Origin: a virus | IMG/VR virus record: IMGVR_UViG_3300037070_001176 | Coordinates: 1-23,036 of that record | DNA: 23,036 nucleotides | Reading direction: 5' to 3' (one strand) | Shown: piece by piece, positions 882 through 23,036 of the stretch | Layout of the letters: each line of letters opens with the position of its first letter | Position numbering within the stretch: the first letter of the stretch is position 1 | The notes under the pieces: model-generated | What the model was told of the DNA's origin: nothing | What the model saw: only the letters and a program-made list of their open reading frames with translations | Database searches by the model: none | Program-made: the position numbers and the translations under genes

Positions 882-3150
882 TTTCCTTTACCTGTTCCTT
901 CTTAGCTCCAGGAGCTGAACCTGATTCAGGATTATTTTCCATTTCCTGAGCAGCCTTTTGAGCCATACTATCCATATGCATTTGAAGATGCTGCATACAA
1001 GCACCAAATCCTTCTTCACTTAGGCTTTCACCTAACGGGCCCTCTAAGATAAACTGTAACACCTCAATATGAACTTGTTCATTATCAACTAATGGATTAA
1101 TTGGAACTGGCATTCCCTGAGATAACTGCTGGAATTCTTTATACTGTTTAATGCGCGCCTCTTCACCAGGAACATAAATATCACTTAAACCGATAGCATT
1201 CTTCATCATGCCTGCATTATTAGGGTGGGTAAGAACTGCTAATATCTCAGGAACACCAGCCTGCAATAACTGGAATATAGCATCCTTCTTCTGTGACCAA
1301 GATTGAGGCAACTGTTCTGATGCTTCTGGTTCTACGCGGCCGACTTTACCATTTAATGAAGATTTACGTATCCAGACATTGACAAAATTACCATTGCCTT
1401 CTTGTTTCGTAAATCTTTCATCTTTATCTAACTCTTTAATAATATTAGCATATTCTACGGCGGACTTACTTTGAACCTGAGTCCAAAACTCACATACAAT
1501 CTTCCAGGTAGTTCCAAGGCGCTGTAATGCCATTGCCTTAGACTGAGTATATTCAGTAGCGGTATTAGACCCGCCAGTTTGCAATCCACCATATATAGAA
1601 GGGAATGCGCTAGATACTAATTGCGCATCCTGGTCCATGCTTTGTTTAAGTGGACTAATTTCCTGTGATAAAATTGCAGTCTTAGTAGTATAAAATGCAT
1701 CAGCAATTGATTTTCCAGCTCTAGGCTTAACTGGCGTAACCATTCCAGGCTTAGCTTGACCTTGACCGTATGTCTGAAAGTCAAGAACTTGAGAGTCTAC
1801 AAATGTCTCAGGAATACCATATTCAGCAGTCTGAATTTCAATTTCAACTAACTGTGCTCTAATATCCTGAACAGTAGCTAAGTTCTCACCTAATGGCCTA
1901 GCATATATAAAAGAACCCATAGGATTCTTAGATATAGACCAATGCTCATCCATATTCTCAGATTGAGCAACCATCGGAACATCATTTACAAAGATGCAAT
2001 AACAGCCATCAGGATACTTCTTTAATAGTTGTTCAACAATAACAGCCGAACTGTTACCTAACTGATAATATTGCCAAGGACGTAACCATAAACATGCAAC
2101 ATTAGCTGCATTGTCTGGCTGTTCACCTAAATACTGAATAGGTAATTTAGAGAATGACTCGAAAGAATTATCATACTTAGCTTCTATATCAATTCCACCT
2201 TCAACATCTTTAAAGATAGAACGCAACATCGCGGCCGACTGTGCAAATTCTAATAAAAGATAACCACAATTAGCTTGATCTTTAGCATAAGCTGGCACTT
2301 TAACATTAAGGCCAGAATACATCTCTCTGCAAATAGTACCCTTAGGTGTATTATCCCATCCTACTATCTGAGGAAACTTTTCTAATGATGTAGATAATTC
2401 GGCCGGGCCAGAATAGCCACAAGTAGGGCACTGATAGATTTCTTCTTCTTTGCCTTGAATACCAGCATCTAAACCTTCACCACACTGAGGGCAATATGCT
2501 TGAAATGTAGAAATATCTTTAAATTCAATCTTATCAGTCTTGATAGTTCCGAACTTAGGGTCTGTATGATAGTAATTATATGCAAATACAGTTCCCTGAT
2601 TGAACAAAATCATCAATGCCCTGATAAAGAGCATCGTATCATCATTATGGGATGCTACTAACCCATTAATCGCGCGGTAGGCTTTAGCTGTTTCAATATC
2701 ATCAGGATTATCTGCATCGTCAGGATGATAAACAACAGCAGGAACTTGAACAGATAGCGCCGCAATTACTGCTTCTCCTAAAGGCCTATAAATATTAATT
2801 AATCTAGGAGGAACTTCTCCTGATTCTTCTAGCATTCCCCAATCAGGAATACGCCAATCTTTAGAAACTTGATCAAAAAAGATATCTAAAATGTTATTCC
2901 AGTAATGTTCTAACTTTTTCCATAAAAGTAATTGATTATCTCTAACAAATCTATCTTCTTCTCTTGCTGACTTTAATAGATCTGTTAGAGCTTTCTTTAT
3001 CTCTTCACTAAATTCAATTGGATCTTCTTCATTAACTTCACTATCAGCAGAAACTGAATCAGAAGCAGACTCATCCTCAACTAATGGAACTTCTTCTGGA
3101 AGCTCTACATCAGGAGTAAATTCATCTACTTCTGAACTTGGAGGATACAT
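874..3150 (-). CDS. Portal protein with inserted zinc ribbon
   Basis: This 758-residue protein would form the dodecameric ring at the capsid vertex through which DNA enters and leaves. Evidence is its place two short genes after the large terminase, its length, and portal-like stretches: PPRLINIYRPLGEAVIAAL near residues 114-131, and a later segment with FPSIYGG and SNTATEYTQSKAMALQRL, as in podovirus-type portals. Residues 1-50 and the tail are acidic or low complexity. A zinc ribbon is inserted at C220/C223 and C241/C244 (CPQC and CPTC). An AAGGA Shine-Dalgarno lies 8 bases before the ATG. The gene begins immediately after the stop of the 45-residue gene. The portal call is confident. The zinc ribbon is read directly, but its role is unknown. 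Confidence 0.88.
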   Translation of the reverse strand: MYPPSSEVDEFTPDVELPEEVPLVEDESASDSVSADSEVNEEDPIEFSEEIKKALTDLLKSAREEDRFVRDNQLLLWKKLEHYWNNILDIFFDQVSKDWRIPDWGMLEESGEVPPRLINIYRPLGEAVIAALSVQVPAVVYHPDDADNPDDIETAKAYRAINGLVASHNDDTMLFIRALMILFNQGTVFAYNYYHTDPKFGTIKTDKIEFKDISTFQAYCPQCGEGLDAGIQGKEEEIYQCPTCGYSGPAELSTSLEKFPQIVGWDNTPKGTICREMYSGLNVKVPAYAKDQANCGYLLLEFAQSAAMLRSIFKDVEGGIDIEAKYDNSFESFSKLPIQYLGEQPDNAANVACLWLRPWQYYQLGNSSAVIVEQLLKKYPDGCYCIFVNDVPMVAQSENMDEHWSISKNPMGSFIYARPLGENLATVQDIRAQLVEIEIQTAEYGIPETFVDSQVLDFQTYGQGQAKPGMVTPVKPRAGKSIADAFYTTKTAILSQEISPLKQSMDQDAQLVSSAFPSIYGGLQTGGSNTATEYTQSKAMALQRLGTTWKIVCEFWTQVQSKSAVEYANIIKELDKDERFTKQEGNGNFVNVWIRKSSLNGKVGRVEPEASEQLPQSWSQKKDAIFQLLQAGVPEILAVLTHPNNAGMMKNAIGLSDIYVPGEEARIKQYKEFQQLSQGMPVPINPLVDNEQVHIEVLQFILEGPLGESLSEEGFGACMQHLQMHMDSMAQKAAQEMENNPESGSAPGAKKEQVKENV

Positions 3151-3288
3151 CTATTTATCCTTACTCAAACTTTTGAGAAATCTAGTTTTCTTTACGTCTT
3201 TTTTCTCTAAATCAGAAAGATTACCAAAGCCTTTAATATCTTTAAAAGCTTGAATAAATCCTGGCTTTTCCTTAGATTGCTTTTTCAT
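3151..3288 (-). CDS. 45-residue basic protein between TerL block and portal
   Basis: ATG at 3288, TAG at 3151-3153, 45 residues beginning MKKQSKEKPGFIQAF and ending LKSLSKDK. It overlaps the end of the upstream small gene by 17 bases and stops one base before the portal ATG, so it fills an otherwise empty gap in a tightly packed operon. This packing is the main support. It is Lys-rich with one predicted amphipathic stretch and no recognisable domain. The Shine-Dalgarno is weak (AAAG). I do not recognise it. Confidence 0.6.
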   Translation of the reverse strand: MKKQSKEKPGFIQAFKDIKGFGNLSDLEKKDVKKTRFLKSLSKDK

Positions 3289-3571
3289 TATCTTTAATCT
3301 TTTGCAATCTGTCTGCATGCTCTTGCATTGATCTCTGAACTAACCTAACTCTTTGCTGTGCCCAAGACTTAGATGGCCGCGATTCTTTTATTTCATTGAC
3401 ATCCGTATCATCTAAATGCTGATTCTGGCCGGTTATAGTCTTGATTAATTCATTAACTCTTTCTCTTTCAATGTCTAGCTGCTCTTCCAAAACGCGACAT
3501 TGACGACATTGAACCGAATCTTCTACCTTGCTTACGAATACTGAAATCTTTCCTTTCAAGAGCTTCAGCAT
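3272..3571 (-). CDS. Small CxxC coiled protein after large terminase
   Basis: The part beyond the terminase stop (below 3468) is clearly coding. It reads CRQCRVLEEQLDIERERVN, then a polar linker, then a Lys/Arg/Glu-rich helical end. Small phage proteins made of a CxxC pair followed by a coiled helix often sit next to terminase or portal genes; their function is unknown. The ATG at 3571 (99 residues) overlaps the terminase end by about 100 bases in another frame. A longer reading from 3736 exists, but it only mirrors terminase codons. No start has a good Shine-Dalgarno, so the N-terminus is uncertain; the C-terminal 65-70 residues are secure. Confidence 0.6.
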   Translation of the reverse strand: MLKLLKGKISVFVSKVEDSVQCRQCRVLEEQLDIERERVNELIKTITGQNQHLDDTDVNEIKESRPSKSWAQQRVRLVQRSMQEHADRLQKIKDNEKAI

Positions 3572-5210
3572 GTTCACAAGCACGATAGAAAGCCGTTTGA
3601 TCATTTGTTTGCTCAAGTACTTTAGCCGCCATACCAATCTTTTGAAGCTTTGCTTGTTCATTAGTGGCTTCACCAAAATAATCACGGAGACGATAAAGAC
3701 CAATTCTAAGGCAGTCATACGGATCATCTCCGTCAAATTCTTTTACATCTTCTTTTTTGACTTCATCATAAACACAAGCAGGAATGCATTCAATAAGAAG
3801 ATCAAGTGCAGTATTGCACTCTGAGATATTTTCATAATCTTTAGCGAATATTTGTAATTTAGGAAGATTATATTCTGGTTCTTCAGGAGCAAAATACTTT
3901 ACATACTCTTCTAATGCTTTAGAACCATGCATTCTTTCTATCTTACTAGCTAAATTCGTATCATAGTCACCGATGATCTGTTTAATAGATGGTAAAGGTT
4001 TCCACCTTAGATACTCATGAACTAACTGCTTACCGCCTACTCGGTTCCTATCCCCTAATGTTAAAGAGCAATTAAAGCCGCTTTCACTTAAAGCTTCTGC
4101 TATCTGTTCATAGATAGTCTGATCTTGACCTCTATCTTGATTAGCAGAGAAACAAATTCCAATATCTCGAACTTGCTCTTTATAATCAGTTAACTGAGCC
4201 ATATCGCGCGCCCACTGTCTAATCTTAACCTTCTTCACTGCATAACAACGATAAATGAAAACTCTACCTTCTGGTGATATTGCCCACCATATGATGAAAG
4301 TATAAGCCTTCATTCCCCAATCTATAGAAATGAGCCGCGGCCACCATGAAGGAATCTTAAAAGACTCTACTACATGTCTAGCATTATCCGGCTCACTTAA
4401 ATCAGGTCTAGTAGGATTGATAAGTGGCTCTAATCTAAATTCTTCAAATACCTGACCTTCAAATGTATACCAATCCCCCAGAATCATTGCCCTACGTTCA
4501 GCTTCTGAGGTTATTTCATTCAGCCGTTTGAAATACTTAGGATTCTCTTCTCTAGCATGAGGATTATCCTCTGCTGTAGCTGGTATGAATATCCTTTTAG
4601 AACCAGTCCTCTTATCATGAATAATCTTACCACCGGTCTTACAAGGATCTATGAATCTCTTACGGAAATATACGTGCCCAACATTTCCTGGATTTGATCC
4701 CCACCTAGTAAATGAAGGTAATCCTGAACCCACTGGAGCACGATTACGTCTGATGGTAATATACTCATACTGGAATCCAGTAAAAGATGTTGCTTCGTCC
4801 CATCTAATAAGTGGAAACTGACCGGTATCATATTTCTTGACATCTTTCTCATCTTTAAGATGTCCAAAAGTGTCCATCGCACCATTAGGCCATTCCCATC
4901 TATGTCGGCCTATATTATAAGTAGCTCCAGTTGAAGGATAATACTCCTGAGAGCGCGGTATAATCTCCTGCTCTAATTCCGGGAATGTTCGTCTAAGGAA
5001 TAAACCTTTAAATCTAGGATTTTCATGGAACTGATAAATCAGTGGCATTAGCATTAGCACATCTGATTTGCCAGCCATTAATGCCCCGCCATAACCTGCC
5101 TCATCTACATCAAAAGGAACAGCAAGGAACCTCTCCTGTTTAAGAGTAGGTTTCCAAGTCTTGCTCTGTTCTTCTACTACAGATTCTAGCGGGCTATTGA
5201 CGGTTATCAT
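3468..5210 (-). CDS. terL: Terminase large subunit
   Basis: This 580-residue packaging motor pumps DNA into the prohead and cuts concatemers. The N-terminal ATPase shows a variant P-loop GGALMAGKS (41-49), LRRTFPEL (72-79), Walker B LIRWDEA (134-140) and a coupling motif RWGSNPG (169-175). SEAERRAMILGDW (235-247) is the usual junction before the nuclease domain. The RNase H-like nuclease shows acidic residues at IDWG (D297) and DGDDPYDCLR (493-502). The ATG abuts the stop of the upstream membrane gene (TAGATG). The small-terminase candidate lies four genes upstream rather than adjacent. Function is secure. Confidence 0.95.
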   Translation of the reverse strand: MITVNSPLESVVEEQSKTWKPTLKQERFLAVPFDVDEAGYGGALMAGKSDVLMLMPLIYQFHENPRFKGLFLRRTFPELEQEIIPRSQEYYPSTGATYNIGRHRWEWPNGAMDTFGHLKDEKDVKKYDTGQFPLIRWDEATSFTGFQYEYITIRRNRAPVGSGLPSFTRWGSNPGNVGHVYFRKRFIDPCKTGGKIIHDKRTGSKRIFIPATAEDNPHAREENPKYFKRLNEITSEAERRAMILGDWYTFEGQVFEEFRLEPLINPTRPDLSEPDNARHVVESFKIPSWWPRLISIDWGMKAYTFIIWWAISPEGRVFIYRCYAVKKVKIRQWARDMAQLTDYKEQVRDIGICFSANQDRGQDQTIYEQIAEALSESGFNCSLTLGDRNRVGGKQLVHEYLRWKPLPSIKQIIGDYDTNLASKIERMHGSKALEEYVKYFAPEEPEYNLPKLQIFAKDYENISECNTALDLLIECIPACVYDEVKKEDVKEFDGDDPYDCLRIGLYRLRDYFGEATNEQAKLQKIGMAAKVLEQTNDQTAFYRACEHAEALERKDFSIRKQGRRFGSMSSMSRFGRAARH

Positions 5211-5835: not shown

Positions 5836-7311
5836 TTAACCTATGGGTGCATTCTGTTCGTGCTTAATCATATCTTCTAACAACCAAGCATCTTCACCTG
5901 GAGGTAAACCAGACCCATAACGTCTACATGTTTGAAACGCTGCCCATGAATAATCAGGATCTCTATTCTGTCTGTCCTGAAATGCTTTAACAACTTGTGG
6001 AAATTCATTATCCATCCAATCTCCTAAATCCTTAGGACCTACATAATTAGAAGGATATGTAATTGGATGCACATTAGGGGGAAGATCAGGATTAGGATCA
6101 GTACCTCCACCGCCATTACCAGAATCATCAATAGGTTCAGCAGGTGCCCAATAACCATTTTCGCCGGCACTAAATGCTCCATAATTTTCCCATGAAGCTA
6201 ATCTATCTGATCCTGGTGGAATAGGTTCATCATCTCCATCCCATCCATTAATAGCATCAATAATTTCAAATCGGTTATCATCCAGAAGATAAGTTAGGCC
6301 ATCAGTATTCTTATTACTTCCATCAGAATTGCGCGCCTTCCTTCCCCAAGGATAATTTTGCCCTTCTGGATTTTCTTCATCACAGAAATAATCTAAAATC
6401 TTAGCGCGCTCTTCTTCGTGAGAAGTATCAATCTCAGGATGTTCGCGCATGATACGCTTAACAGTTTCAATTCTATTCGGTGCATAAAACATAGGTGGCT
6501 CCACTGGAGGTTCAATTGGTGGTTCTATAGGAGGTTCAACTGGATTAGCTAAAGTCAAATCAACTCTTGGTAAATTAATATCAATTTCAATATTAGTAGG
6601 ATTGCCATTGCCATCAGAGCAAGCTACTAATATCTTACCATTAACGAATAAAGCATCCGGACTCCAACATGGGCTATTGAAATGATATCCAAATTTCTCA
6701 CCCCAAGGATGAGCATTCATTGTATCGTCATGTAGACGAGAAATGATCCAAGGAAACTGTCCATCTACATCTACTAAGATAGCTTCTTCCCATTTGACTA
6801 ATGATAACTTAGCTACAGGCCCACCTGCTAGCTTACCATAAATATCTCTACCACCTCCATTAGCAACAGACCAACAAACTGCATTCTTGCATGAAGATGT
6901 ATTGAATACTAATCCTGAACCAACTTTAGTAGCATTGACAATAACATCAACATTATCTTGAAAGTATGGCGTGGCATAAGTAATTACATTCCCATCTTTA
7001 GAAATGGACGGCGCCGTTCCTTCAATTATCTTATTTCCGTTGATGTAAATATCAGGATTAGAGAATCCAATAACTTTACGATTACCAGCACATAAGAGAT
7101 TGTATTTAACTGACGATACTTTAACTAACCCAGTACCATCCTTATCAATCATCCAAAGATAATCATTCTGGCCAATGAAGATAATAGTATTATCATCATA
7201 CCAACCAGGATATGTACCAGGCGATGCGATCTGGCTACCATTAAACCAGATAGAGCCGGCACCCGATACAATTTCACCTAAAGAATTAATCTTTGGAAAC
7301 CAACCATTCAT
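5836..7311 (-). CDS. Propeller-like two-domain protein, possible adsorption protein
   Basis: 491 residues. Residues about 1-245 consist of short repeated beta-strand units with WY/WM/WS dipeptides and phrases such as ISKDGNVITYATP and CWSPDALFVNGKILV, like TolB or WD-type propellers. A proline linker, EPPIEPPIEPPVEPP, separates a C-terminal domain starting near RIETVKRIMREHPEID. That domain contains an acidic NGWDGDDEPIPPGSD stretch, a Gly/Pro linker and a Trp-rich end. GGAGG lies 7 bases before the ATG, inside the end of the preceding gene. Between the fibre-like and holin-like genes, an adsorption or receptor-binding accessory role is plausible, but I do not recognise the family. No signal peptide is seen. 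Confidence 0.8.
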   Translation of the reverse strand: MNGWFPKINSLGEIVSGAGSIWFNGSQIASPGTYPGWYDDNTIIFIGQNDYLWMIDKDGTGLVKVSSVKYNLLCAGNRKVIGFSNPDIYINGNKIIEGTAPSISKDGNVITYATPYFQDNVDVIVNATKVGSGLVFNTSSCKNAVCWSVANGGGRDIYGKLAGGPVAKLSLVKWEEAILVDVDGQFPWIISRLHDDTMNAHPWGEKFGYHFNSPCWSPDALFVNGKILVACSDGNGNPTNIEIDINLPRVDLTLANPVEPPIEPPIEPPVEPPMFYAPNRIETVKRIMREHPEIDTSHEEERAKILDYFCDEENPEGQNYPWGRKARNSDGSNKNTDGLTYLLDDNRFEIIDAINGWDGDDEPIPPGSDRLASWENYGAFSAGENGYWAPAEPIDDSGNGGGGTDPNPDLPPNVHPITYPSNYVGPKDLGDWMDNEFPQVVKAFQDRQNRDPDYSWAAFQTCRRYGSGLPPGEDAWLLEDMIKHEQNAPIG

Positions 7312-7313
7312 AT

Positions 7314-8612
7314 TTAACCTCCAATTGATTTACAAAGATAAGTATCAGATGCAGTGAAATCTTCAGTCAACCCAGTAACCCTATCATATGAAGTTAACAC
7401 TACAGCAGTAGTAGAAGTTGCTCTTCCTATAACATAATTAGTAGCTTGTGCGGCATCTGATGTATTATTATCACAAGAAACAGACCAAAAATGAGCTGCT
7501 GCTGGCATTGTAAGAGTAAATGATTTAACACCAGTGCAGCTAGTTCCTATTGTTACTAGAAATGAAGCCGTACCATTATTCCAAGTAACGGCGGGAGTAG
7601 TACATCCACCAGAAGCTATAGTTGGTGCTGTAACACTTATCGTTAAAACTGTATTTAATCTGTATGCCTGATTAGCCGAGACTCCATTTTCATCTACCCT
7701 AAAACGTTCAGCTGGGCCACAACCACTAGCTTCTGTAGCTGTTAAGAAATTAATATAACCACTAATATTAGTAGTAGTAACTGTATTAGCAAATAATCCT
7801 ATATTGGCAATAGGGCACCTTGAGGTTCCATTAAATGCTTCAGCTTCAAGAAATGTAATTAAGTCTCCAGCATTTACAATAGTAGGAATAGCAAATGTAC
7901 CTCTTGCGCGCACCGATCTAAGATATAATCCTGGAAAATGAGCAGTTACATTATTAGCTACTACACCTATAATACTACCAGAAGTAGTAGTGCCGCTCAT
8001 CATTACCTGAACACCATTAGGACTCATTGCGCTTAACGGTGAACCATTTCCGTCCGAAATATGTAATGATCTTAGTGGATTAGTAGTACCAATCCCTACT
8101 TTGCCAACAGTAGAAAACTTAGCTGTAGCCCCACCTGATGTTTCAGTTCCATTCTGTAGAATATTAGCTGATGTAGTAATATCTCCAGAAATGATGCCAC
8201 CATTGAAAAGAGAGGCATTAGAAGTAGGCTGGGCCTTAGCTATTAACGTGACAGTAGTGTTGAATGTCCCAGTCTTAGCAGTAATCTGTGCTCTAATAAA
8301 TTTGATAGCTGTAATGACAGTTCTGATTTCACCGGCGGTAGATGTTGATGTATCAATAGTATTATAAGTACTATTGTCCATTGACCCTTGCAGTAGAACT
8401 GTGATAGCTGTAGGAGTAGATGAATAGATAGTCTGCCAGGTAACTACGGCCGCCGGATTTCCTGGTAATGCATAAGCAGTACCTGCCGTAGTAGCACCAG
8501 AAGATGATGCTGTAAAGGAATCCTGTGCAAATCCAAATGAAAGAGTAGACTGAGCTTGTATATTTGAGGATAAAGAGAGAATTAATAGGAGTCCCAATAA
8601 AATCTTTTTCAT
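7314..8612 (-). CDS. Fibre-like protein with secretion signal
   Basis: 432 residues, rich in Thr, Ser, Ala and Gly with little Lys, as in trimeric beta-structured fibres. The start MKKILLGLLLILSLSSNIQAQ is a classic Sec signal peptide with a likely cleavage after AQA or AQ. Mid-protein it has VGIGTTNPLRSLHI (about residues 173-186), a motif common just ahead of or inside phage tail-fibre and spike regions. The C-terminal part is Thr/Ala-rich with CTTP, SCTG, SCDN and YLCK cysteines. A strong GAGGGGAG Shine-Dalgarno lies before the ATG. A signal peptide on a phage structural protein is odd, because virion proteins are normally assembled in the cytoplasm. It may instead be an exported surface protein. 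Confidence 0.8.
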   Translation of the reverse strand: MKKILLGLLLILSLSSNIQAQSTLSFGFAQDSFTASSSGATTAGTAYALPGNPAAVVTWQTIYSSTPTAITVLLQGSMDNSTYNTIDTSTSTAGEIRTVITAIKFIRAQITAKTGTFNTTVTLIAKAQPTSNASLFNGGIISGDITTSANILQNGTETSGGATAKFSTVGKVGIGTTNPLRSLHISDGNGSPLSAMSPNGVQVMMSGTTTSGSIIGVVANNVTAHFPGLYLRSVRARGTFAIPTIVNAGDLITFLEAEAFNGTSRCPIANIGLFANTVTTTNISGYINFLTATEASGCGPAERFRVDENGVSANQAYRLNTVLTISVTAPTIASGGCTTPAVTWNNGTASFLVTIGTSCTGVKSFTLTMPAAAHFWSVSCDNNTSDAAQATNYVIGRATSTTAVVLTSYDRVTGLTEDFTASDTYLCKSIGG

Positions 8613-9995: not shown

Positions 9996-10169
9996 ATGTT
10001 TATTGTTTACTCACAGACGCTAGACACGAATAGAGTGTATGATGTTACTCTAGCTAAATCATTCAATGCAGCACAAATTCAAATTAGAGCTAGATTTAAA
10101 GCTAGACCTGATGATTGGCATTCTACTAGACAAATTTTGAAAGTGTCTGATATTGAATGGATTAAGTAG
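9996..10169 (+). CDS. 57-residue hypothetical protein
   Basis: ATG at 9996, TAG at 10167-10169, beginning 2 bases after the previous stop. The product starts MFIVYSQTLDTNRVYDVTLA, is followed by an Ala/Arg-rich helix (AAQIQIRARFKARPDDW), and ends SDIEWIK. It has no known domain. Tight spacing and a clean terminator 8 bases after the stop support a real gene ending a short early unit. Confidence 0.55.
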   Translation: MFIVYSQTLDTNRVYDVTLAKSFNAAQIQIRARFKARPDDWHSTRQILKVSDIEWIK

Positions 10170-10177
10170 ATTTAGAC

Positions 10178-10209
10178 ATGTCCACTTAATGCCAAAAGTG
10201 GACATTTTT
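10178..10209 (+). terminator. Rho-independent terminator
   Basis: A perfect 10-bp stem ATGTCCACTT/AAGTGGACAT (10178-10187 with 10196-10205) and an 8-base loop, with five T at 10205-10209. It closes the first early unit. The stem half ATGTCCACTT also occurs at 9189-9198, in the leader of the late operon. Confidence 0.8.
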
Positions 10210-10231
10210 AAACCTATTGATTGGAGTGTGT

Positions 10232-12437: not shown

Positions 12438-12467
12438 TTAGTGAACTAGAATAATAAATCTTGCAAT

Positions 12468-12504
12468 CTATCTATGATTTATATATAATAGGACTCATAG
12501 ATAG
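12468..12504 (+). promoter_or_regulatory. Hairpin just before the ribosome site of the 51-residue gene
   Basis: CTATCTATGA (12468-12477) and TCATAGATAG (12495-12504) form a perfect 10-bp stem with a 17-base A/T-rich loop. The AGAGG ribosome site starts 4 bases after the stem and the ATG follows at 12518. Position suggests RNA processing or control of translation. There is no T-run, so it is not a classic terminator. Confidence 0.55.
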
Positions 12505-12517
12505 GTTAGAGGATTTT

Positions 12518-12673: not shown

Positions 12674-12922
12674 AAATCAAAATGGCAAACAAACTAGTAA
12701 CCTGCGAAATTGATACTTTAATGGATTACTTGTGATACGAGATTAGCTAGAGTGTTTCTGATTTATTAATGTGATAAATCAGTAGGTCCATTGAATGGGC
12801 GTAAAAGACTCCGCAGATTGCAACTGTTGAATAAACTAATCAGTTTATAAATTACAAGTAATCCATTAAGTTATCAATTCTAAAGGATAGAAAATGAATA
12901 AGTTAGTAACCTGCGAAACTTG
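12669..12922 (+). repeat. Direct duplication of a gene start around a structured element
   Basis: About 44 bases from 12669 resemble those from 12880. Both hold CTAAA, an ATG, then NKLVTCE codons, with TAGTAACCTGCGAAA identical at 12695-12709 and 12904-12918. The downstream copy is the real start of the 244-residue gene and has AAGGA. The upstream copy has no Shine-Dalgarno and runs into a stop after 17 codons (MANKLVTCEIDTLMDYL). The hairpin element at 12708-12879 lies exactly between the two. Confidence 0.8.
12708..12879 (+). ncRNA. Structured RNA-like element with 29-bp closing stem
   Basis: Bases 12708-12736 pair with 12851-12879 over 29 positions with a single mismatch and two G-U wobbles. 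Inside are three further hairpins: CTGATTTAT/ATAAATCAG (12758-12766 with 12774-12782, perfect), GTCCAT/ATGGGC (12786-12791 with 12795-12800, one wobble), and ATAAACT/AGTTTAT (12831-12837 with 12842-12848, perfect). The closing stem ends 3 bases before AAGGA and 14 before the ATG of the next gene. It may be a cis-acting leader, a processed small RNA or a mobile-like element. No known RNA family is recognised; it lacks the motifs I would expect of a tRNA, hammerhead or group I core. Confidence 0.65.
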
Positions 12923-13642: not shown

Positions 13643-13912
13643 ATGAGTATATTTATTCCTATTATTCCACCTGGTTATATTTTCGTTACTAATCACGGAA
13701 ATATTACTAATGAGCTACAAGCAAATAGTGAAACAGCTAAATTCATTGGAGTGCCAATAGAGGATGTTATCTCATTAGCTAATATGATACCATCAGCTAA
13801 ATTTAGCTCATATTGTTTAGAAAAACATAAATCTATTGTAGATAGAAAAATCGCTAGTATTAAACATTTACTAGCTGAACTATCTAAGTTAGATGATGAT
13901 GATTTTGAATAA
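13643..13912 (+). CDS. 89-residue hypothetical protein
   Basis: ATG at 13643 with AGGAG 7 bases upstream. It begins with a hydrophobic stretch, MSIFIPIIPPGYIFVTNHGN, continues with mixed helices and ends in an acidic LSKLDDDDFE tail. It is not long enough or hydrophobic enough for a secure membrane call. It is followed immediately by a strong hairpin. Function unknown. Confidence 0.65.
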   Translation: MSIFIPIIPPGYIFVTNHGNITNELQANSETAKFIGVPIEDVISLANMIPSAKFSSYCLEKHKSIVDRKIASIKHLLAELSKLDDDDFE

Positions 13913-13964
13913 AAATCCTGCATCAGACTCTCTTAGAGATGAGAGGGTCTTATAGAGGATTTTT
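13911..13964 (+). terminator. Two-tier hairpin, terminator-like
   Basis: AAAAATCCT (13911-13919) pairs with AGGATTTTT (13956-13964). Inside, AGACTCTC (13925-13932) pairs with GAGAGGGTCT (13941-13950) with bulged bases. The A-run and T-run make it terminator-like in both directions. It overlaps the end of the preceding gene and lies just before the GGAG of the next, so processing or partial termination inside the operon is likely. Confidence 0.65.
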
Positions 13965-18961: not shown

Positions 18962-19098
18962 TGGCTAAGAAAAAAGTTAAGAAGAAGAAAAAGAAAGTTA
19001 ATAAAGGCAAGCATTATAAAATAGATAATAATACTACAAGAGAAGAATTTCAGGAAGCAAGACAGGACTTATTTGACTTTCTAACTAAAAGATACTAA
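18961..19098 (+). CDS. 45-residue Lys-rich basic protein
   Basis: ATG at 18961, TAA at 19096-19098. The first 18 residues are almost all Lys (MAKKKVKKKKKKVNKGKH), followed by a helix EEFQEARQDLFDFLTKRY. A strongly positive tail plus a short helix suggests binding to nucleic acid or an acidic partner. Coupled to genes on both sides. Confidence 0.6.
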   Translation: MAKKKVKKKKKKVNKGKHYKIDNNTTREEFQEARQDLFDFLTKRY

Positions 19099-19100
19099 AA

Positions 19101-20051
19101 ATGTCCGATAACAAAGACAGAATCAACATAATCTTCGATTCACAGATACTTAACACACTACAATCATGCCCCTATAAAACATTTCTTAGATTCATACAGA
19201 ACTTAAACTCAGCAGAAGGAACTAATCCTAACTTTGAAGAAGGGGACTTATTGCATAGAATGTTTGAGTTCTATAATCTTGTCTTAAAAGAGTATAAAAC
19301 TGAAATATTATATGATAATGATAAGTTCCCACAGTTAGTAAAAGCGTGCTGTGAATATGGTCAGTGGGCATCTGTACAACTGAATATTACACCTACTGAA
19401 TGTAGTGAAGTTATCTATCAGTTTGATGCTTTCGTTAAACATAATAGAATGGATGGCGTTACTATCTTAGAAGTAGAGCGCCCGTTTATTATTGAATTAT
19501 ATAAAGATGATCAATTTTCAGTGCAATATACAGGTAAGATTGATCGTCTAACGGAAACTCCACAGTTTGGTATTATCCCTAGAGATTATAAGAAAGCTGC
19601 ACAGAAAAGAGATCCTGGTAGACTTTCTAATCAGTTTATGGGATATGCAATTGCAACTAATAGTGATTTTACATTCGTGGATCAAGTAGGATTCCAAAAG
19701 ACTCTGCCGCCGGATAAAAGGTTTATAGAGTATCAGCTTCATTATAATAAGTTCCAAAAAGAAGAATGGAAAAAGAATACTATCTGGTGGGCTAAGCAAT
19801 TGGCATTCTTCTTAGAAACTAATACGTGGCCTGAGAATAGAATGTCATGCCATCAGTTCTTTAGCTGTGACTTCATTCCAATCTGTGATGCAACTGATGA
19901 AGAAGTTAGACAGCATCTTATCAAGACTAAGTTTGTTATCGGAGATGATTGGGATCCTACTTCTGTTCTTGTTAGAAAGGAACAGAATGAAGAAAGAATT
20001 AAGATGGCTGAGATTGCCGGTAATTATGGGATTGATTTGAGGATTTTATGA
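19101..20051 (+). CDS. RecB/Cas4-type PD-(D/E)XK nuclease with iron-sulphur cysteines
   Basis: 316 residues. SQILNTLQSCPYKTFLRF (14-31) with C23, GDLLHRMFEFY (49-59) with H52, YTGKIDRL with D148, RDYKKA with D162 and K164, and NQFMGYA (Q178, Y182) give the RecB-type nuclease core. Three more cysteines (C250, C256, C262 in SCHQFFSCDFIPIC) with C23 make the four ligands of a 4Fe-4S cluster as in Cas4 and AddB. No Cas genes or repeats are nearby, so a phage recombination exonuclease is far more likely than CRISPR adaptation. It would produce ssDNA for the RecA-like ATPase and ssDNA-binding candidate encoded downstream. Confidence 0.88.
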   Translation: MSDNKDRINIIFDSQILNTLQSCPYKTFLRFIQNLNSAEGTNPNFEEGDLLHRMFEFYNLVLKEYKTEILYDNDKFPQLVKACCEYGQWASVQLNITPTECSEVIYQFDAFVKHNRMDGVTILEVERPFIIELYKDDQFSVQYTGKIDRLTETPQFGIIPRDYKKAAQKRDPGRLSNQFMGYAIATNSDFTFVDQVGFQKTLPPDKRFIEYQLHYNKFQKEEWKKNTIWWAKQLAFFLETNTWPENRMSCHQFFSCDFIPICDATDEEVRQHLIKTKFVIGDDWDPTSVLVRKEQNEERIKMAEIAGNYGIDLRIL

Positions 20052-20239
20052 GATATCATACTCATCATTATATTTTAGAATTTTGGGACAAAAGAACTAA
20101 AAGCTATAAAAATGGTGCTTCGAACAAAAATATTGAAAGACTTAGGATTTTGACTAAAAAGCCATACTTTAATTATTCTTATATGGGAAAGAAACGCATT
20201 ATTTGTATTCAAGTTACAAAGATATGGGAATCAAAATGA
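20048..20239 (+). CDS. 63-residue basic hypothetical protein
   Basis: ATG at 20048 overlapping the nuclease stop as ATGA. The product is basic and aromatic: MRYHTHHYILEFWDKRTKSY at the start and KPYFNYSYMGKKRIICIQV near the end. Probably a small beta protein. It overlaps the next gene as ATGA. Unknown. Confidence 0.6.
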   Translation: MRYHTHHYILEFWDKRTKSYKNGASNKNIERLRILTKKPYFNYSYMGKKRIICIQVTKIWESK

Positions 20240-20493
20240 AAGCCTACATCTCATTCGGTCAAGAGCATACACATAGAATTAACGGTCAAACATATGACTG
20301 TGACAGTTTAATGGAAGTGGAAGGGCCGGATGAATTTGCTATAAGATTAGCATTGAATAGAACGATTAAAAGGTGGTGTGGCTTGTATTATGAAAAAGAT
20401 ATGCATATGTTTCCTAAGTATTTTCCTAGAGGTGTAATTAATAAAGATAAGCCTATTTATATCTGTGAATTAGAAAAAGAAAATGGCACCTAA
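20236..20493 (+). CDS. 85-residue hypothetical protein
   Basis: Start at ATG 20236, which overlaps the previous stop (ATGA). An upstream TTG at 20203 is inside the previous gene and less likely. The product reads MKAYISFGQEHTHRINGQTY, then MEVEGPDEFAIRLALNR, and ends YICELEKENGT. Small mixed fold; similar HxHxINGxxxD openings occur in phage hypothetical proteins. Unknown role. Confidence 0.65.
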   Translation: MKAYISFGQEHTHRINGQTYDCDSLMEVEGPDEFAIRLALNRTIKRWCGLYYEKDMHMFPKYFPRGVINKDKPIYICELEKENGT

Positions 20494-20815
20494 AAAGCAC
20501 ACTCATCGTTATACCTATAAGAACATAGGCAAGATAGATAAGCCACGCTGGGTTTATGCCTGTGCTAGAGAAGATTGCTCTCACTTCATGCCAGAGGGGA
20601 GTGAATCTCTCTTAGTAGGTAAAAAGACTCAATGTCATTCTTGTTTGAAAGATACTATTCTTACTCAGATTATGATTAGTAAGAAGATACAGAGGCCGCG
20701 CTGTTTTGACTGTAAGGCTAAAGATACAAGACCGCGTGGGTTTAAAAAGAAGAAGCCAATAGAAGCTCAGAAGATGGATTCTGCTATTGATATGATTTTG
20801 AAGATGAGACTCTAA
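20483..20815 (+). CDS. 110-residue multi-cysteine zinc protein
   Basis: ATG at 20483, overlapping the previous gene by 11 bases. It opens HTHRYTYKNIGKIDKPRWVY, then CAREDCSHFMP, CHSC and RCFDCKAKDTRPRG, giving three CxxC/CxxxxC groups that could hold one or two zincs. The C-terminus is basic (FKKKKPIEAQK). The same layout occurs in uncharacterised phage proteins beginning H-x-H. It likely binds nucleic acid, by composition. Confidence 0.65.
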   Translation: MAPKKHTHRYTYKNIGKIDKPRWVYACAREDCSHFMPEGSESLLVGKKTQCHSCLKDTILTQIMISKKIQRPRCFDCKAKDTRPRGFKKKKPIEAQKMDSAIDMILKMRL

Positions 20816-20818
20816 AAA

Positions 20819-20986
20819 ATGAGCCACGATAACAAAGTCCACAAAGAGCCAGAATCAATCTCTATGACAGACTTAAAGATGGCCTTTAGAGACTATCTAA
20901 CAGCTAAAGGATTCCATCATGAGTCTGATAAGCAAATTCAATGGAGATTATTTTGGGATAAGGTTAAGAGAAGAATAAATGCATAA
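20819..20986 (+). CDS. 55-residue helical hypothetical protein
   Basis: ATG at 20819, TAA at 20984-20986, overlapping the next start by 8 bases. The product starts MSHDNKVHKEPESISMTDLK and ends RLFWDKVKRRINA. Charged and helical with a basic end. Unknown. Confidence 0.55.
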   Translation: MSHDNKVHKEPESISMTDLKMAFRDYLTAKGFHHESDKQIQWRLFWDKVKRRINA

Positions 20987-21350
20987 ATTCAATCCAGAGA
21001 AAGTAGAAGAATTAAAGGAACGCTATCCTTTAGCTATAGAAGATACATACATTCAACTAGATGTAGCTAGAGGTATAAGAGTAAGACCAGGGCTAAGGTC
21101 AGAACATAGGTTTGACTTCTATGATGGTATCAGGTTAATCATCTCTAAAGAGCAGGAACCTAATGGAAGATTAGTAATTCATATTAGTGGGTCTGCCACT
21201 AAGAATGATGAAATTCAAACAATGACAGATACTATTGCTCATCATATTGCTGAGCATTTTGCACTCCTAAGTGATAGCATGAAAGAATTAGATATTGTAA
21301 GTATTACAGAAGGGCAAGTTTTACATCTTTATTTAAGATTGGATAATTAA
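20979..21350 (+). CDS. 123-residue hypothetical protein
   Basis: ATG at 20979; AAGAGAAG lies 10-17 bases upstream. The product starts MHKFNPEKVEELKERYPLA and contains GLRSEHRFDFYDGIRLIIS and TMTDTIAHHIAEHFALLSDS. It has an alternating strand/helix pattern with a His-rich helix. I do not recognise the family. Overlaps the next gene by one base (TAATG). Confidence 0.65.
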   Translation: MHKFNPEKVEELKERYPLAIEDTYIQLDVARGIRVRPGLRSEHRFDFYDGIRLIISKEQEPNGRLVIHISGSATKNDEIQTMTDTIAHHIAEHFALLSDSMKELDIVSITEGQVLHLYLRLDN

Positions 21351-21547
21351 TGAAGATTAAATCTATTATTATTGAATTGACAGCCTCTGACCAAGAAAGA
21401 ACTAGAGAACAGTTTATTGAATCTAGAACTCTTATGCTAGGTAATGGAAAATGGTCAGTTAAAGGGGATAATGATGGATTATTTCCTGGAGAAGTTAGAC
21501 TAGTCAGTATGATTGAAGAAGTCAGAAGTAAAGTTGGGAGCATCTAA
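21350..21547 (+). CDS. 65-residue hypothetical protein
   Basis: ATG at 21350, TAA overlapping the next start (TAATG). The product contains IIIELTASDQERTREQF and GLFPGEVRLVSMIEEVRSK. Small alpha/beta protein. Placement directly before the RecA-like ATPase suggests it belongs to the recombination set, but no motif shows this. Confidence 0.65.
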   Translation: MKIKSIIIELTASDQERTREQFIESRTLMLGNGKWSVKGDNDGLFPGEVRLVSMIEEVRSKVGSI

Positions 21548-22377
21548 TGCCCGACGTATTTGATATCGATCCTATGTCAAAGTATATGGCTTTCTATGTA
21601 GGTCCAAATGGATGTGGAAAGTCTATTGCTATTGCATCCTGGAAAGAAGTTGGGCCAGTATATACATTTGACTTTGATGGTCGAATGAATAGTGTTGTTA
21701 ATTGGTATAAGGATAAAGGTCTAAAGAAAGGTGAACTAATCTATGATACCTACGGTCCCTCTAACCTTTATGATGCTTATACTAAACTTAAAGACCTAGT
21801 AGAAGTTCATTGTCCTTATTCAGCAGTATCATTAGACTCATTTACGGCCGCGACTATTACGGCTGTAACATACTCAATTTATAAGCGGATGGGAAAAGGT
21901 CCAAATAGTAAAGACTATCCTAAACTTTCTAAGGGAGAGATGCTTCTACCTGATTGGGATGAGTGGAACGCAGAGGCAATGTTCGTTACCATCATGCTAG
22001 ACCTTTGTAAGCAATTAGCGGCGCGCGGTATAGCAATATTCTGGACTGGCCATCCTGTTCAAAGAATGAATATTAAACAGGAAGGCAATACTCAAAAGAT
22101 TAGCTATCAGACTAAATTTGCAGCATTTGGCCATAAGAGTGATAGTTTAATTCCCATTTATTTTAATGAAATTTATCATTTTAGACCAGAAATTGATATC
22201 ATGACTAATACTGTCATGAGAAAGTGCCATACACAGCCTGCTGAAGATGTAGTAGCTAAGACAGCACTTAATCTTCCAAAAGTAATAGATTGGACAAATA
22301 GAAATTTCAGGGAGACTTTCCTCTCCTGTCTAGGAAAAAAGGAGCAGCCTATTGAAGTAAAAACAATTACTATCTAA
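21547..22377 (+). CDS. RecA-like AAA ATPase, Sak4-like candidate
   Basis: 276 residues. Walker A VGPNGCGKS (18-26) and a Walker B-like strand AVSLDSF (93-99) define a RecA-fold ATPase of the group often labelled AAA_24 or Sak4-like in phages. Such proteins, paired with an ssDNA-binding protein and a nuclease, promote strand annealing or exchange. GIAIFWTGHP near 160 matches the sensor strand. FAAFGHKSDSLIPIYFNEIY continues the typical C-terminal half. The neighbours (nuclease upstream, ssDNA-binding candidate downstream) support this. ATPase is secure, the Sak4 assignment is likely but not proven. Confidence 0.82.
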   Translation: MPDVFDIDPMSKYMAFYVGPNGCGKSIAIASWKEVGPVYTFDFDGRMNSVVNWYKDKGLKKGELIYDTYGPSNLYDAYTKLKDLVEVHCPYSAVSLDSFTAATITAVTYSIYKRMGKGPNSKDYPKLSKGEMLLPDWDEWNAEAMFVTIMLDLCKQLAARGIAIFWTGHPVQRMNIKQEGNTQKISYQTKFAAFGHKSDSLIPIYFNEIYHFRPEIDIMTNTVMRKCHTQPAEDVVAKTALNLPKVIDWTNRNFRETFLSCLGKKEQPIEVKTITI

Positions 22378-22436
22378 GTGTTGATCTCTAATTGTTTCGT
22401 TAGGTAAGTTAAGAGAAGAAGGAAAAGGTAAATCAA

Positions 22437-22868
22437 ATGAAGATTCGTGTTACTCCGGAAGACTTTCTTAAGGGTGGATTGGCTGAACTTGGTTGGCTTC
22501 CTGCACAGATTACTAAGTGGGATGAAAGTGGAGTTGCAGGACCAAATGCTAAGAATCCTGGTAGTCAGTTTACTAAGGTAGAGTTTACTGTTACTGTTGG
22601 TGGTTCTAAAGGTAAGATTGTTTATGCTAACTTTTCTGAGGTTGCAGGAGTCTTTGTCGTTCCTTTGATTGAAGCTATCAGTGGGCAGAAGGTAGATAAG
22701 GCGGCTATCCTTGAAATGGATGTCCGTAAGGAATCTATGGAAGGTAAATTGGTAGATATCCATACGATTGCAAGTTCTTACAATGGTAAGCCAGGTCGTC
22801 AGATTGACCTCTTCCGACCCTATACTGGACCTGCCATGAGTGCAGAAGTTGCTCAGGCTGGTGTCTAA
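22437..22868 (+). CDS. DUF669-like putative ssDNA-binding protein
   Basis: 143 residues from ATG 22437; AAGGAAAAGG lies 9-18 bases upstream. It begins IRVTPEDFLKGGLAELGWLP and AQITKW, with a beta-rich middle (TKVEFTVTVGG and KIVYANFSEVAG) and a Pro/Gly-rich end (DLFRPYTGPAMSAEV). The G-W-x-P-A-x-I-T-K opening followed by paired beta strands matches the DUF669/OB-like phage proteins that accompany recombinases. SSB function is inferred from this and from its position after the ATPase. It lacks the acidic tip of classic SSB. Confidence 0.6.
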   Translation: MKIRVTPEDFLKGGLAELGWLPAQITKWDESGVAGPNAKNPGSQFTKVEFTVTVGGSKGKIVYANFSEVAGVFVVPLIEAISGQKVDKAAILEMDVRKESMEGKLVDIHTIASSYNGKPGRQIDLFRPYTGPAMSAEVAQAGV

Positions 22869-22879
22869 TTAGCTAAAGT

Positions 22880-22990
22880 TTACTGCTAGGATGCCTAGAT
22901 TTACTAGGATGGTATTCTGATACTACGAAGTTATAAAGACTGGGAAGTATGTATCTACCCAAGAATACTAGACAAACATCCTAGCAGTAA
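22880..22990 (+). ncRNA. Second structured RNA-like element, 14-bp closing stem
   Basis: TTACTGCTAGGATG (22880-22893) pairs perfectly with CATCCTAGCAGTAA (22977-22990). The 83-base interior has hairpins CCTAG/CTAGG (22894-22898 with 22904-22908), GTAT/ATAC (22912-22915 with 22920-22923) and TGGG/CCCA (22941-22944 with 22958-22961). The layout is cloverleaf-like, but the T-loop and other tRNA hallmarks are absent. It sits between the stop of the DUF669-like gene and the ribosome site of the next gene. It has no terminal T-run. It resembles the element at 12708 in plan, not in sequence. Confidence 0.6.
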
Positions 22991-23007
22991 TTATTGATTG
23001 GAACATT

Positions 23008-23036
23008 ATGGATATTTTTAGTCAGTTACGTAGATC
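23008..23036 (+). CDS. Start of next gene, cut by window edge
   Basis: ATG at 23008 with TTGGAA 6 bases upstream opens MDIFSQLRR and runs off the end. It lies 17 bases after the structured element. Nothing more can be said of its product. Confidence 0.45.

Follow-up and report, generated by a model that had tools for sequence, protein, structure and literature searches.

The small stable RNAs C and D of phage T4 are encoded in its tRNA cluster. Two other families of structured RNA, ROOL and GOLLD, are found near tRNA islands, and many GOLLD members are longer than 800 nt, according to the available sections of PMC12286853. For the processing of phage messages, the precedent is the T7 R1.1 site, which is processed by RNase III and for which a 12-bp stem suffices with no strong consensus; the same enzyme excises intervening sequences of 100-200 nt (both as given in the available part of PMC8708148). 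Hammerhead ribozymes have also been proposed to cut phage transcripts, as stated in the available text of PMC3088659.

The locus compared here with these systems belongs to the virus record IMGVR_UViG_3300037070_001176, the whole 23,036 bases of which were analysed as one stretch (the window) and whose gene content suggests a phage.

Location and gene context

The element (22880-22990, + strand) is found at the extreme end of the record, which stops 46 nt past it. It occupies the 139-nt gap between the stop codon of an SSB-like gene (22866-22868) and the next ATG (23008), beginning 11 nt past this stop and ending 17 nt before the ATG, as an earlier, sequence-only reading had stated when placing it between two genes. 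The upstream gene is a 143-aa ORF (22437-22868, +) without a family match, named SSB-like from its position after the ATPase only, and the ATPase-like ORF (276 aa, 21547-22377, +) was recognized by eye from a nucleotide-binding motif. Only the start of the following ORF is present (23008-23036, +), as it is truncated by the contig end. Genes for replication and recombination are located near the element.

The two arms of the element (22880-22893 and 22977-22990) form a perfect inverted repeat, 14 of 14 positions being complementary, and the perfect 14-bp closing stem described from the sequence is thus confirmed, as is the presence of TTCTGAT and AAAGACT inside it. It is very improbable that this repeat arose by chance in the non-coding gap. 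A stretch of 23 kb offers many places for such a repeat, and 6 of 200 shuffles of the whole window had at least one perfect 14-bp repeat with a loop of up to 200 nt, but shuffles of the 139-nt gap alone gave a perfect inverted repeat of at least 14 bp in 1 of 5000, and the 17 long repeats found between genes in the window and twelve related contigs have no counterpart in shuffled sequence.

Predicted fold

The RNA fold predicted for 22876-22994 has an energy of -41.8 kcal/mol (z -6.2), and none of 200 shuffles was as stable. The best fold of 22880-22990 itself (-41.1 kcal/mol) is well defined and consists of the closing stem P1 (14 bp, supported by both the inverted repeat and the fold), the hairpin P2 (22894-22908, CCTAG-ATTTA-CTAGG, pairing probability >0.9) and a single long arm, P3 (22910-22970), all on the + strand. 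Within P3, a helix pairs 22910-22918 with 22962-22970, a second one pairs 22919-22926 with 22947-22949 and 22951-22955, and the tip hairpin pairs 22929-22932 with 22938-22941. In this prediction P2 directly abuts P1 and could stack on it. An alternative hairpin at 22940-22961 competes with the long arm and is about 2 kcal/mol less favourable. A GGG/CCC pseudoknot of the long arm was judged by eye to be sterically impossible.

The sequence-only reading had drawn the interior as a cloverleaf of three hairpins. Scored as reconstructed (the closing stem with CCTAG, GTAT/ATAC and TGGG/CCCA hairpins), this arrangement reaches -34.1 kcal/mol, about 7 kcal/mol worse than the best fold. P1 and the CCTAG/CTAGG hairpin are kept in the minimum-energy fold, while the other two hairpins are replaced by the long arm. 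When the closing stem was held fixed and the inner 83 nt were shuffled, 23 of 1000 sequences folded equally well (z -2.35); therefore, the signal lies mostly in the closing stem, and the interior is special only modestly.

The opposite strand of 22876-22994 folds more weakly (-36.2 kcal/mol, z -4.9). This bears on whether the repeat could act in the DNA, as a cruciform or as a replication or recombination site, which is compatible with its symmetry on both strands and with the replication and recombination genes nearby. The better fold of the + strand speaks against such a role, the branched interior and the filling of a co-directional gap suit an RNA, and the sister elements described below adjoin tRNAs, so that a DNA-level feature is considered unlikely to a high degree.

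A translation switch, in which the ribosome-binding site of the next gene would be hidden until the upstream gene is translated, was likewise given a low probability. The sequences flanking the element can form an outer helix that takes in the stop codon of the upstream gene as well as bases preceding the ATG; however, this helix is equalled in 28 to 172 of 1000 shuffles, the number varying with the flank that was used, and the predicted accessibility of the ribosome-binding site moves only from 0.42 to 0.51 when the upstream stop region is blocked.

Searches for related sequences and known families

The element has no match in Rfam 15 at gathering scores, and at E<=10 only one snoRNA family appears, far under its cut-off. 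No tRNA or tmRNA was called in the window by ARAGORN, no terminator-like site (a GC-rich hairpin with a T-run after it) was found in 19000-23036, and a second copy, as expected of a mobile repeat, is absent from the contig. A single-sequence covariance model of the element (R1), run against the window and its kin (772,913 bases in all), matched only the element itself and, at E 0.1, its own reverse strand. The exact arm is present in 61 other viral stretches, and in none of them do 8 or more bases of its partner lie within 250 nt. Furthermore, in INPHARED the element gave chance matches of 19 nt only, and the SSB-like and ATPase genes had no protein match; two scans of bacterial genome contigs, for the ATPase alignment and for the SSB-like protein, yielded no relative of either. 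A model (R2) of a separate conserved motif near SSB-like genes did not match the window. The element thus appears to be an orphan, with its exact form known from one occurrence.

None of the known ribozyme families in Rfam is found in the window at E<=10. An undescribed self-cleaving ribozyme, cutting the phage transcript itself, could be envisaged by analogy with hammerheads, which flank phage genes and are proposed transcript processors (available text of PMC3088659), and a related phage (G009, 5894-5948; locus L090, 2528-2582) has a twister-P5 above the Rfam cut-off, 14 nt before an ATG. Since the window lacks any such family and a conserved core is unrecognizable from a single sequence, we consider this explanation improbable.

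The element had also been compared with a second one in the window, at 12708, from shared heptamers, position between genes and distance to the next start codon. A relationship between the two is not supported: model R1 does not detect the 12708 element, and sharing TTCTGAT and AAAGACT is at chance level, two or more common 7-mers being seen in 241 of 1000 shuffled pairs. The distance of 17 bases to the start codon holds for 22880-22990, while the 12708 element ends 14 nt before its ATG. At this second locus (12682-12918), the element is flanked by a near-repeated gene start (22 nt, 86% alike; MANKLVTCE.. at 12682, MNKLVTCET.. at 12894), an arrangement that resembles either an insertion that duplicated the start of the gene or the layout of a ribosome bypass.

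The gap after the SSB-like gene in related phages

Related contigs were found via the ATPase-like gene. In the nearest relative (G001), the terminase is 69% identical over its main segment and the ATPase 52% identical. Its SSB-like gene (locus L002) is followed by two closed elements, at 7298-7427 and 7442-7535, with coding-strand z of -3.4 and -4.2 (-2.8 and -3.1 when the ends are set a little differently), and further downstream by a tRNA-Leu (8064-8151). Sequence conservation between the window and G001 is absent in this slot. Similarly, the slot of G004 contains a closed element whose 12-bp stem is perfect (L068, 6329-6418, z -3.6), that of G007 a structured stretch (z -3.2) followed by a tRNA-Leu, and in G002 a tRNA-Leu lies immediately after the SSB-like gene (L003, 7224). 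The window, ending so close to the element, has no tRNA of its own, and some kin have tRNA-Leu in or near this slot. The slots of L072, L082, L090 and L096 contain plain terminator-like hairpins (by eye), and the gaps of L004, L070, L073, L077, L083, L084 and L093 are no stabler than shuffles (all z > -1). Since closed elements or tRNA-Leu are present in some kin and plain hairpins or ordinary gaps in others, the slot carries a small structured RNA or a tRNA often, not always.

Short stretches are shared between L068 (6322-6700) and L081 (2919-3012) and between L093 (6328-6445) and L088, hinting at further conserved RNAs in this slot. Additionally, a conserved motif, GGTTGTGTGAATGCTT..GCGGTAARCACGTAAAATGACGGA, was observed in L070 (6352-6415), L073, L077, L081, L137, L143 to L146 and L153. 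Its 7-bp main helix covaries, with two-sided changes in 5 of 7 pairs among nine distinct sequences. The motif lies 3' of the SSB-like gene, but 5' of it in L145, and in L143 and L144 the start of an ORF falls within it. Rfam gave nothing at gathering scores for L070, L077 and L081, and nothing at E<=5 for the L081 slot. A tRNA-like sequence, uncalled by ARAGORN, was found in L084 (4498-4591), with the closing stem GCCGGGG..CCCCGGC and a GGTTCAAATCC arm.

The terminase of G001 (1526-4231, -) is a single 915-aa frame with a gap between its two matched parts, intein-like. Also, ORFs resembling free-standing homing endonucleases (by eye) adjoin structured elements in L004 (6824-7285) and in G002 and G003, downstream of their closed elements.

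Inverted repeats between and within genes

In the window and twelve kin, inverted repeats with a score of at least 12 and a loop of up to 200 nt number 17 in 33.3 kb of intergenic and 31 in 553 kb of genic sequence, with borders set by a simple ORF caller, and the shuffled counterparts number 0 and 11, respectively. Long inverted repeats are therefore about 9 times denser between genes than within them. Loops of at least 26 nt are found in 9 of the 17 intergenic repeats, spread over 6 of the 13 contigs.

Three sites recur: after the SSB-like gene (window and G001), upstream of the gene preceding the helicase (window 12708, G007 and G009) and after the exonuclease (G002 and G003). At the second of these, the neighbouring genes of G007 and G009 are homologous, and those of the window are not (BLAST at 1e-3). 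The coding strand was favoured in 10 of 11 cases in a set partly picked from + strand folds. In a strand-symmetric set, which omits the window element owing to the truncation of the ORF downstream of it at the end of the contig, the coding strand was favoured in 11 of 18 cases and in 5 of 6 with loops of at least 30 nt. The coding-strand preference across kin is mixed and weak. Long imperfect hairpins were also seen at gene borders of the window at 12456-12516, 13911-13964 and 10167-10216; on the coding strand, these are stabler than shuffles, with z of -5.1, -6.3 and -6.1.

Tandem RNAs E1 and E2 after the exonuclease gene

A search with the exonuclease of G002 gave 26 loci (L155-L180), most of which have two tandem closed elements, E1 and E2, downstream of the gene. 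Examples are L171 (E1 4383-4450, E2 4453-4510) and G002 itself (L103, - strand; E1 1942-2009, E2 1881-1938). E1 is about 68 nt long and combines a variable closing stem with inner helices of 4 bp and 5 bp; its invariant letters include GAAAG and TAGTG. In an alignment of 12 rows, where the outer stem of L158 is one position off register, two-sided changes are found in 20 of 22 pairs, with a covariation of 0.739 compared with 0.259 when shuffled. Of the 66 sources searched with the E1 model, 25 match at E<=1.4e-6, these being 23 of the 26 exonuclease loci (with G002 and G003 counted as L103 and L106) as well as L183 and L191. The window, G001 and the remaining kin contigs are unmatched by it, and the window element was therefore not assigned to E1.

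E2 is about 60 nt long. Its closing helix of 10 pairs has 190 of 190 cells paired, a percentage inflated by the selection of rows for having an inverted repeat, and 63 two-sided changes; the covariation score is 1.001, compared with 0.237 when shuffled. These counts refer to 19 rows, L156 and L164 having been removed from an alignment of 21. One outer pair was trimmed for register in L163, L165, L168 and L172; the copies of L169, L173 and L179, which look identical to those of L168, L172 and L164, were left out, as were L170 and L174. The two elements are often followed directly by tRNA-Leu or tRNA-Met, and a tRNA gene starts within 80 nt past E2 in 7 of 21 aligned loci. Membership of the window element in E2 was rejected, as it has 111 nt and follows the SSB-like gene, while E2 follows the exonuclease gene or its neighbour. 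Rfam scans of two E1/E2 loci (L003 and L004) returned nothing but the tRNA in L003. E1 and E2 show clear covariation, no Rfam match in the two scanned loci and a tRNA adjacent in a third of loci. They are arguably a larger result than the element 22880-22990, and of stronger novelty.

The conservation of E1 also bears on whether the window element is purely a hairpin for processing or stabilizing the message, with the stem being cut or blocking an exonuclease and the interior serving as filler. The statistical signal, found chiefly in the closing stem and not in the interior, would fit such a hairpin, as would the unconserved slot sequence between the window and G001, the further long hairpins that the window has at its gene borders and the requirement of RNase III for a helix and not a sequence (available part of PMC8708148). 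The sister E1, however, keeps interior letters and inner helices, unlike filler. A pure processing hairpin is considered a real but rather doubtful alternative.

Proposed mechanism

Here it is proposed, with moderate confidence, that the element forms a closed and structured RNA domain within the replication-operon transcript, most likely cut at its closing helix and belonging to a wider class of closed-stem RNAs in phages. The proposal is based on the predicted fold, the position, the enrichment of the class and the covariation in two other families. The RNA reading is supported by the strong fold, which is better on the coding strand, by the intergenic enrichment, by the closed elements that G001 and G004 have in this slot and by the covarying elements beside tRNAs. 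Of the functions listed in the sequence-only reading for a phage RNA family, a processing site or a small RNA agrees with this proposal, and the switch was set aside given the small predicted change in accessibility.

The element would be a domain of about 111 nt on the + strand of a polycistronic replication-operon transcript, in which the 14-bp end-to-end helix, next to the 5-bp hairpin, would close the branched interior. A cut at or beside the closing helix could be made most simply by a double-strand-specific nuclease, e.g., the RNase III of the host; P1, with 14 bp, perfect and with a high predicted pairing probability, has the length of helix (about 12 bp or more) used by this enzyme. 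Cleavage would part the SSB-like message from the following one and would free or cap a stable small RNA. The element would then be one of a wider class of closed-stem RNAs kept at gene borders and beside tRNA genes. From these observations we infer that the element is transcribed, that it is cleaved and by which enzyme, that it forms one functional class with the others, and that the released RNA might have a function.

A broader and more tentative possibility, which we would not put above a minority likelihood, is that this phage group encodes closed-stem small RNAs carried with tRNAs and swapped among fixed slots of the replication operon, with stems varying freely if paired. E1 and E2 would be two such families, and 22880-22990 would be a member in the SSB slot that has diverged or been replaced; jointly, they would form a phage small-RNA system, for host defence, translation or message maturation. 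If the proposed reading is right, uncultivated phages keep gene-border RNAs that are selected for pairing and not for sequence, and such RNAs would therefore escape sequence searches.

Comparison with known systems

Like the RNase III sites of the T7 type (R1.1 and others), the element is a structured helix between phage genes, for which no sequence consensus is needed (available part of PMC8708148). Unlike them, it has a closing stem around a branched 83-nt interior instead of one long hairpin, and its cleavage is proposed by analogy. The intervening sequences that RNase III excises from 23S rRNA are similarly pieces of 100-200 nt forming a stem (same source, available part); the window element is placed between phage genes and not inside an rRNA, and its excision is putative. 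With the hammerhead and twister ribozymes of phages, it shares a structured RNA ending just before a start codon, but it matches no described family at E<=10.

With T4 RNAs C and D, ROOL and GOLLD, the likeness is that of a structured phage RNA whose same slot in kin, or whose sister elements, adjoin tRNA genes, and the proximity of the sister elements to tRNAs recalls these RNAs. The element differs from GOLLD in its length of about 111 nt, compared with more than 800 nt for many GOLLD members (available sections of PMC12286853), and in lacking both a tRNA in the window and an Rfam match. A likeness in organization is also seen with E1 and E2 of the phages resembling G002 and G003, which also have a long closing stem and a small structured interior at a gene border in this phage group, beside tRNAs; they differ in their slot after the exonuclease gene, and the window element lacks the conserved interior letters of E1. 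No description of the window element or of E1 and E2 was found in the available portions of the literature searched, which is not proof of their absence from print. The element 22880-22990 itself is new and an orphan, and its kind is already known.
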